From: Aquisalinus luteolus
GTDB taxonomy: Bacteria; Pseudomonadota; Alphaproteobacteria; Caulobacterales; Parvularculaceae
Assembly (NCBI RefSeq): GCF_009712425.2
Contig: NZ_VCJR02000002.1
Span: 806,001-870,000 of the forward strand
Length of the DNA: 64,000 nucleotides
Reading direction: 5' to 3'
Under the pieces are notes generated by a model that did no database searches, had not been told where the DNA came from, and saw only the letters and a list, made by a program, of their open reading frames with translations. The position numbers were made by a program, and so were the translations under genes. Of the stretch, positions 22,391 through 25,487 are shown piece after piece; the stretch's first letter is position 1, and every line of letters starts with the position of its first letter.

Positions 22391-23302
22391 ATGCCTAGCG
22401 AATATAGGCCAGCCACATCAGTCGAGACGTTTCTGCGGAGAATTAACCAAGTTTTGCAATCAAACAAGAAGGGTCAGCTATATTATCGTGGGCATGAATG
22501 GAAGTCTTTTGATGCCGTGCCATCTGTTTCTCGTCTAGAGGCACATGAGTACAACGAAGACTCGATGATAAAGCAGTTGCTTACTGATCATCCATTCGAA
22601 TTCGAGCAAGACAGAACAACCTTTGAAAAACTGGTCAGGGCGCAACACTATGGATTGCCAACACGCCTACTCGACGTAACAAAAAATCCATTGATAGCTC
22701 TATATTTTGCCTGTCAAGGACCCTCAGAAGAGAAAGATAAAGATGGAGAGGTTATTGTTTTCGCACCTGGTGCGGAGCGCATAAAGTTTTTTGATAGCGA
22801 TACGCTATCCTGCATTGCAAATTTAAGTATGCTCACATTTAATCAAAAAGAATACTTAAAAAAACATTTTGAAGATTGTAGAGATCTTGTAAAAAGTGTT
22901 TATCCTGAGGACAGGGGAAAGTATATTCAGGCATTAGTTGAGAACTTCAATGCGGTTGAGGATGTTGAAAGGTTAGTGCACTATGTAAGGATGGAGAAAC
23001 CGGGATTCCGGGCTCGCATAAACCCAATTGACTTAGTGAACATTGTAGCTGTAAGTCCGCGAAAATTGCATAAAAGACTTATCGCGCAAAATGGAGCTTT
23101 CTTGGCGTTTGGCCTATACTGGGAAAACCCTGAAAAACCTTTCTTTCCTATGGATGATTTTGAAATAACTGAAATATACATAAAGAGGCAAAGTAAGAAG
23201 AAAATTCTGAAAGAGCTTAATAGTTTAGGTATTAATACGGAAACCCTATTTCCTGAAATCGATAAATCGGCAAAGGTTATATCTGATATCTATAAGGGAT
23301 GA
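22391..23302 (+). CDS. FRG-domain protein in an AT-rich insert
   Basis: 303 residues. The FRG domain is recognised by YYRGHEWKSFDAVPS (Tyr32-Arg33-Gly34-His35) and by RAQHYGLPTRLLDVTKNPLIALYFAC (residues 83-108), both highly characteristic. There is no signal or membrane segment. GGGAG lies about 11 bases before the ATG at 22391. Base composition is very unlike the surroundings (17 of 60 G+C in the line 22801-22860), so it was probably acquired. FRG proteins recur in variable and defence-rich loci, but I know of no proven biochemical activity. It stands alone between the entericidin terminator and a dipeptidase gene. Confidence 0.88.
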   Translation: MPSEYRPATSVETFLRRINQVLQSNKKGQLYYRGHEWKSFDAVPSVSRLEAHEYNEDSMIKQLLTDHPFEFEQDRTTFEKLVRAQHYGLPTRLLDVTKNPLIALYFACQGPSEEKDKDGEVIVFAPGAERIKFFDSDTLSCIANLSMLTFNQKEYLKKHFEDCRDLVKSVYPEDRGKYIQALVENFNAVEDVERLVHYVRMEKPGFRARINPIDLVNIVAVSPRKLHKRLIAQNGAFLAFGLYWENPEKPFFPMDDFEITEIYIKRQSKKKILKELNSLGINTETLFPEIDKSAKVISDIYKG

Positions 23303-24551: not shown

Positions 24552-25007
24552 CTATTCCATAGCGACGGGCACGAAAACATCCGTGCCCGTCAACTGGTGC
24601 GACCAGTCATAGTCTGCATGGGACCGGGTCAGGTGCCAGATCGTCTCGATCGTCGGTACTCCATCGAGCGCCCGGCACGTGCCTGACCAGGCCGAGACAC
24701 TGCCATAGGGCGTGAAGCGGACTGAGAAGGTCAGGGCTGGGACAACATCCTCGGCCCTATCATCCTTACTTGTCACAACCCAGCCGGTAAGGGCGAAGGC
24801 TTCGCCCGCCGTGCCGGAGGGGGACGTGAATTGCCCGCGCAGGTGGCCGGAGATTTCCTCCACCTCTGTAATGACCAGCGTCGGTGCGCCATCTTCGGCA
24901 TTGGTCCATTCGCCGGCAAGGTTTTCGCAATCGGCAGCCATGGCGGGCATAGTGATTCCACCCGCCAGGGCCACGATTGCAGCAAGGCTGCATGCAGTCT
25001 TTGTCAT
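24552..25007 (-). CDS. Secreted avidin-family biotin-binding protein
   Basis: 151 residues: signal peptide (MTKTACSLAAIVALAGGI...AMAA) and one avidin/streptavidin beta-barrel. By hand alignment to streptavidin, the following biotin contacts are kept: Asn36 (N23), Ser62 (S45), Ser103 (S88), Ser105 (T90), Trp107 (W92), Trp124 (W108), Leu126 (L110), Trp135 (W120, from the neighbouring subunit) and Asp143 (D128). Tyr43 and Trp79 are replaced by Phe60 and Phe98. Cys27 and Cys111 sit where chicken avidin has its Cys4-Cys83 disulfide. Likely a periplasmic or secreted biotin binder; its stop is 12 bases from the convergent dipeptidase stop. Confidence 0.88.
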   Translation of the reverse strand: MTKTACSLAAIVALAGGITMPAMAADCENLAGEWTNAEDGAPTLVITEVEEISGHLRGQFTSPSGTAGEAFALTGWVVTSKDDRAEDVVPALTFSVRFTPYGSVSAWSGTCRALDGVPTIETIWHLTRSHADYDWSHQLTGTDVFVPVAME

Positions 25008-25076: not shown

Positions 25077-25487
25077 CTATTCCCAATAGGCGCCGCAATA
25101 GGTGACTTCGATCTCGCCAAGTTCCTCGGCGGCGGCCATGAAGTCGATAATCTTTTCTTCGTCAAAACCACGCGCGAGAAGGGCATTCACGAAGCTGTCG
25201 AATTGTTCGTCCGTACTGAGGTCGCCGTGCTTGAGCAGTTCCTGCAACAGCACCAGGTAGCTGATGAAGTCGGCCTCGTTGAAATAGCCACCCGACATGC
25301 CGAGCGAACAGGCGCAGCTTGTCTCGGCCTGCGCATAGCTGTCGAAATACTGCGTCTGGTCTGCCATGCAGACCCTGGTGAATTCGACAATCGCCTCATC
25401 CAGATTGGCGGGCGTCTGCTGTGCCGAGACAGTCGCAGCCGGGAGCATGCAGGCTGCCAGAAAGCCCGTCAGAATTCTCTTGATCAT
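25077..25487 (-). CDS. Small secreted cysteine-containing protein, function unknown
   Basis: 136 residues with signal peptide (KRILTGFLAACMLPAATVSAQQ) and a helical mature part with four cysteines (RVCMADQ, TSCACSLG, VTYCGAYWE). A very strong GAGGAGG precedes the ATG at 25487. It ends 69 bases upstream of the avidin gene on the same strand, so the two could be co-transcribed. No family recognised; the cysteine pattern suggests disulfides in the periplasm. Confidence 0.8.
   Translation of the reverse strand: MIKRILTGFLAACMLPAATVSAQQTPANLDEAIVEFTRVCMADQTQYFDSYAQAETSCACSLGMSGGYFNEADFISYLVLLQELLKHGDLSTDEQFDSFVNALLARGFDEEKIIDFMAAAEELGEIEVTYCGAYWE

Follow-up and report, generated by a model that had tools for sequence, protein, structure and literature searches.

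Genes and features of the avidin locus

The window analysed here, a stretch of 64,000 nucleotides from contig NZ_VCJR02000002.1 of Aquisalinus luteolus, carries on its reverse strand an ORF that encodes a genuine avidin-family protein (Table 1). The position of this ORF and its reading as a bacterial avidin with a putative export signal, both given in a preliminary description made from the sequence letters, were confirmed: it scored 76.2 bits with the Pfam Avidin model PF01382 (curated cut-off of 24; E 3.6e-21) and was the only ORF of the genome to match that model; the nearest solved structures in a sequence search of the PDB were zebavidin (9.1e-6) and bradavidin (9.9e-4); and the signal-like first 24 residues, ending in AMA-AD, make export past the inner membrane probable. 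With 24 bits at a cut-off of 300, the protein lies outside the streptavidin equivalog (NCBIfam NF047623).

Table 1. Features of the avidin locus (window coordinates; residues numbered from the start of the precursor)
Feature	Position	Strand	Basis
Avidin-family protein, 151 aa	24552..25007	(-)	ORF, PF01382 match, predicted fold
Probable Sec signal peptide, residues 1-24; mature chain from Ala25	24936..25007	(-)	read from sequence (AMA-AD)
Cys27 codon, likely paired with Cys111 (24675-24677)	24927..24929	(-)	alignment
Asn36 codon (streptavidin Asn23), only ureido-oxygen donor kept	24900..24902	(-)	alignment
Rebuilt L1,2 loop Ala37-Pro42 (AEDGAP), Ser27 equivalent lost	24882..24899	(-)	alignment, model strand limits
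Phe60 codon (streptavidin Tyr43)	24828..24830	(-)	alignment
Phe98 codon (streptavidin Trp79)	24714..24716	(-)	alignment
Asp143 codon (streptavidin Asp128)	24579..24581	(-)	alignment
Small protein with signal-like N-terminus and conserved cysteines	25077..25487	(-)	upstream of avidin, same strand, also in A. flavus
FRG-domain gene	22391..23302	(+)	Pfam 2.8e-19, PADLOC PDC-S15 2.6e-101

The genes for M19, avidin, small protein, MatE and SLT occur in the same order in Aquisalinus flavus. The avidin gene is under purifying selection between the two species: dN/dS of the mature protein was 0.094, at values of 0.057 (M19), 0.092 (MatE), 0.098 (SLT) and 0.174 (small protein) for its neighbours; ADH, read in a wrong frame, was left out of this comparison. 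No Pfam or NCBIfam family was found for the small protein. Of 62 genomes searched, the same two had strong hits for both avidin and small protein, with two further weak hits elsewhere (2.5e-4 and 6.8e-4); because the two genomes with strong hits are close kin (MatE identity 91%, the best hits in the remaining four members of the genus reaching 35-38%), the co-occurrence shows little, and a two-gene module was rejected. The GC content of the avidin gene (0.612) is close to that of its surroundings (0.608), and a scan for promoters and terminators at the locus found none, 0.5 and 1.0 being expected in shuffled sequences. The absence of a nearby biotin gene, as described earlier, agrees with the Pfam results for 15 proteins of the neighbourhood (15.3-36.6 kb of the window). 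The FRG-domain gene, whose GC content is 0.396 in a window of 0.608 and for which the corresponding site in A. flavus leaves no space, is a candidate defence islet.

Predicted fold and biotin pocket

The eight-stranded avidin barrel was found in a predicted model, not a solved structure: the AlphaFold2 model of the mature chain comprises eight strands (mean pLDDT 78.8, pTM 0.72), at an alignment depth of five sequences and with loop and rim blocks averaging pLDDT 69-80. The best PDB matches listed were avidins and streptavidins (Foldseek best E 4.8e-7); Z values to these proteins, among the matches listed, were 15.1-15.5 over 104-116 residues (15.2 for streptavidin 1mk5_A). The control model, that of the canonical avidin L058, was weaker (mean pLDDT 72.3, residues 114-121 below 50), and the models give no side-chain positions.

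Cys27 and Cys111 are the only cysteines of the mature chain. Their earlier assignment as an avidin-type pair holds for Cys111, which shares an alignment column with the second cysteine of chicken avidin, but less exactly for Cys27, which lies one column off the first; an avidin-type disulfide is likely, with a pairing that is inexact by column. Because the disulfide between loops L3,4 and L5,6 of the rhizavidin-type dimeric avidins, described in similar form for bradavidin (PMC3344845), is absent and Trp135 is kept in the alignment column of streptavidin W120, where it hints at an inter-subunit contact, a dimeric state appears weakly disfavoured.

For the pocket comparison 51 avidins were aligned and 50 counted, i.e. 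those of the window and of A. flavus and 48 others (44 loci and four typed references). L016 was dropped from the counts and from the tree, as the wrong domain had been cropped; L047 (no ORF by pattern), L056 (no avidin core) and the near-duplicates L001, L002, L005, L014, L029, L032, L033 and L034 were left out of the table. The counts do not represent independent events, 19 of the 48 other rows being from one family of the order (f238) and 16 of these from one clade. Sixteen avidins of f238 (L038 to L046 and L048 to L054) represent a further natural variant of the pocket, in which W79 is replaced by Phe and D128 by Ser or Ala.

Nine of the 14 tabulated pocket positions are identical to those of streptavidin (N23, S45, G48, S88, W92, W108, L110, W120 and D128), T90 is represented by Ser, and L25, S27, Y43 and W79 differ; the nine kept contacts with one Ser for Thr that had been counted previously come close to this, and Phe60 at Y43 and Phe98 at W79 were borne out by the alignment. 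The weight formerly given to the replacement of W79 was misplaced: Phe occupies this position in 22 of the 48 others, including the biotin-binding bradavidin, and the exchange was ruled out as the key anomaly. Since Phe is also found at Y43 in nine of the 48, neither exchange is special by itself.

The term near-complete biotin pocket, in contrast, had to be given up, the Ser27 hydroxyl being gone as well as that of Tyr43 in an L1,2 loop whose rebuilding had passed unmentioned. From Asn23 to the second strand the six residues AEDGAP stand for QLGS of streptavidin, i.e. two more, with no Ser, Thr or Tyr among them, whereas all 48 other avidins counted possess a four-residue loop ending in Ser27. 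Strand 2 occupies model residues 19-25 in both the window avidin and the L058 control, and as it begins at residue 19 in both models, Pro42, or Ala41 before it, would stand at the Ser27 position. The loop of A. flavus (AINGSP) likewise has six residues, with a Ser that the profile of the 48 other avidins places on Ser27 (NAINGSP); the loss of the hydroxyl is therefore certain for the window species and unsure for A. flavus. Three of the six loop positions differ between the two species, out of 18 differences in the core, so the loop sequence is not tightly kept.

The ureido oxygen of biotin is held by Asn, Ser and Tyr (PMC5398887). Within the corresponding triad N23/S27/Y43 Asn36 is kept, Ser27 is lost and Tyr43 is Phe60; as read from the alignment, Asn36 is the sole remaining donor of the three. 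The ureido NH contacts Ser62 and Asp143, Ser103 and the walls formed by Trp107, Trp124 and Trp135 are kept. It is Ser27 with its loop, and not W79, that sets the window avidin apart.

Relatives, mobile carriers and spread

In the tree, the avidins of the window and A. flavus fall into a clade of nine rows (support 96/96; inner order partly open) together with one Xanthomonas and one Burkholderia glumae plasmid avidin, three avidins from IMG/VR and a pair (L036 and L037) that comes from a different family of the same order. Ser27, Tyr43 and Trp79 are all present in the five rows from plasmids and IMG/VR; L036 and L037 keep Ser27 and Trp79 and carry Phe at Y43 and W120. The two other avidins of the host's own family (L003 and L004) belong to the sister clade (nine rows, 98/89), both clades lying within an 18-row group (98/91).

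Plasmid records with avidin relatives numbered 85 (Xanthomonas 47, Burkholderia 37, Rhizobium 1). The avidin gene of the B. glumae plasmid (L030, 5001..5462) is flanked by those of a type I polyketide synthase and an MFS transporter, a neighbourhood reminiscent of streptavidin beside antimetabolite clusters as reported in PMC13336041. Two of the three IMG/VR loci of the clade were covered by a scan for phage genes: a terminase, a primase and a Q-like antiterminator surround the avidin gene of L057 (5001..5444), and an integrase, a BstA-like gene and an endolysin that of L058 (5001..5447). Avidin may thus possibly travel as phage cargo, in one case near a BstA-like abortive-infection gene. The window avidin had no match among phage GenBank records, and scanning IMG/VR with the window avidin, streptavidin and L011 as single queries found no relative. 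In the library of papers searched, no paper named Aquisalinus together with avidin, and none contained three of the four terms chosen for prophage-borne avidins.

With the Pfam Avidin model, matches were obtained in four of the 62 genomes of the family and two of the six of the genus. Because of this patchy spread and the mobile carriers, horizontal transfer of the window avidin, in whichever direction, is suggested, although the GC content of the gene resembles that of its surroundings; vertical descent within the family may account for the gene as well. A profile search of the order with the clade returned 23 of 299 genomes, including L056 (2.8e-4), which has no avidin core, and L047, which has no ORF by pattern. 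Profile alignment A1, which missed a genome that Pfam finds (G044), returned none of 369 genomes of a gammaproteobacterial sample that had no known positive, so that this null result carries no weight. The earlier statement that bacterial avidins are rare is correct for the samples taken (six among 385 genomes from the class, 16 among 398 from the phylum, both including the window's own genome) but not for the family at large, which is widespread in print: a published survey gives 118 species in 11 clades (PMC8033661).

Expected binding, host biotin genes and known avidins

The best explanation, with a probability of about 0.6, is an exported avidin whose rebuilt pocket confers weakened and possibly releasable binding of biotin or desthiobiotin. 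The window gene would give rise to an exported barrel protein of a clade that includes avidins of plasmids and prophage-like contigs, and its pocket would have been rebuilt in the lineage that A. flavus shares with the window genome: the L1,2 loop, longer by two residues, would remove the Ser27 hydroxyl and Phe60 that of Tyr43, so that a single hydrogen bond to the ureido oxygen, out of three, would be left, while the NH contacts, Ser103 and the Trp walls would stay. Biotin and desthiobiotin would most likely still be bound, orders of magnitude more weakly than by streptavidin, and the vitamers would be held in the periplasm or outside the cell. By analogy with streptavidin, in which S27A is reported to shift the Kd from 1e-14 to 1e-12 M (PMC3712923, citing Klumb 1998) and S27A with G48T to give reversible binding of biotinylated MBP at 1.15e-8 M (PMC3712923), we infer a much weaker but real biotin affinity; the effects of streptavidin mutations need not add up in the same way in a different avidin. 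A complete loss of biotin binding is less likely because Ser62, Asp143, Ser103 and the Trp residues are kept.

That the protein is instead an ordinary high-affinity avidin, in which the loop or water replaces the two hydroxyls and a near-irreversible hold starves competitors, is unlikely, given that loss of Ser27 alone is reported to cost about 100-fold in streptavidin (PMC3712923) and that Ser27 is kept in all 48 other rows. Such an avidin would nonetheless agree with the nine identical pocket positions and Ser at T90, with the nine other rows that carry Phe at Y43 and with the existence of a crystal structure of streptavidin Y43F with biotin (1ndj). It would also agree with bradavidin, which has Phe66 in place of Trp79 (PMC3344845) and is described as binding biotin, whose ureido oxygen is contacted by Asn9, Ser13 and Tyr31 (PMC5398887), so that Phe at W79 is compatible with binding.

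It is rather improbable that the pocket no longer serves biotin, having passed to another ligand without a ureido carbonyl or to a structural role only, as in the fibropellins, described as binding no biotin (PMC8033661). Changes of S27, Y43 and W79 in one lineage under purifying selection would suit this alternative, as would the report that streptavidin binds acidomycin in the same pocket (PMC13336041); the biotin contacts Asn36, Ser62, Asp143 and the Trp walls are kept, however, and the Pfam scan of 15 neighbours revealed no recognisable antimetabolite genes.

As to the host, bioB scored over the cut-off in both the window genome (392 bits; on another contig, L080 7148..8134) and A. flavus, and no other bio gene was recognised beside it by reading neighbouring ORFs. 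A bioD gene was found in neither of the two avidin-bearing genomes by a search that was positive in nine of 14 controls; each has one bioA-like hit below the cut-off, and that of the window genome scores over the cut-off of the GABA transaminase model. With bioD not found and the bioA-like hit so scored, the host as a biotin prototroph was dropped; if the absences are real, the criterion of PMC9561691, according to which bacteria with bioB only can live on desthiobiotin, would class it as a desthiobiotin auxotroph.

Either salvage or sequestration may be the role of the window avidin; that of streptavidin itself is now tied to biotin antimetabolites (PMC13336041). The host genes and the reversible S27A and G48T streptavidin would fit a releasable scavenger, i.e. 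a naturally loosened avidin of plasmid- or phage-borne stock that picks up biotin or desthiobiotin beyond the inner membrane and returns it to an importer, serving to store or carry the vitamin rather than to act as an antibiotic-like sink. This extension of the weakened-binding reading is doubtful: the search for bio genes covered only bioA, bioB, bioD and BioY, BioY, the only importer sought, was found in neither genome, and three of the four other genomes of the genus, all without an avidin match, have bioB over the cut-off, which counts against a simple link between avidin and bioB. If reversible binding did feed a bioB-only host, avidins could serve salvage as well as the starving of rivals. 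Reusable affinity matrices, of which one was engineered by changing Ser27 and Gly48 (PMC3712923), could also be developed from an avidin that is reversible by nature.

The window avidin is a real member of a known family, and what is new is its pocket variant. Its closest counterpart, the A. flavus avidin (79% identity, 86% for the mature chain), matches it in loop length, in Phe at both Y43 and W79 and in gene neighbours, and differs in the Ser kept in its loop. The plasmid avidins of Xanthomonas (WP_022557741.1, L028; 46% identity) and B. glumae (WP_012732748.1, L030; 40% identity) share with it the SPSGT L3,4 loop, the two Cys positions and the clade, but retain NQLGS, Tyr43 and Trp79; L030 also differs from streptavidin at S88 and L110. 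L036 and L037 resemble it in clade and in Phe at Y43, and are distinguished by a four-residue loop with Ser27, by Trp79 and by Phe at W120. With streptavidin it has the fold and the nine identical pocket residues in common, the S27 and Y43 hydroxyls and W79 being lost. Bradavidin agrees in Phe66 for Trp79 but retains Ser13 and Tyr31 and possesses a loop disulfide, Cys39-Cys69, with no counterpart in the window avidin. The engineered SAVSBPM18 (S27A, G48T; PMC3712923) likewise lacks the Ser27 hydroxyl; in contrast to that designed protein, in which Gly48 was changed, the window avidin keeps this residue as Gly65.
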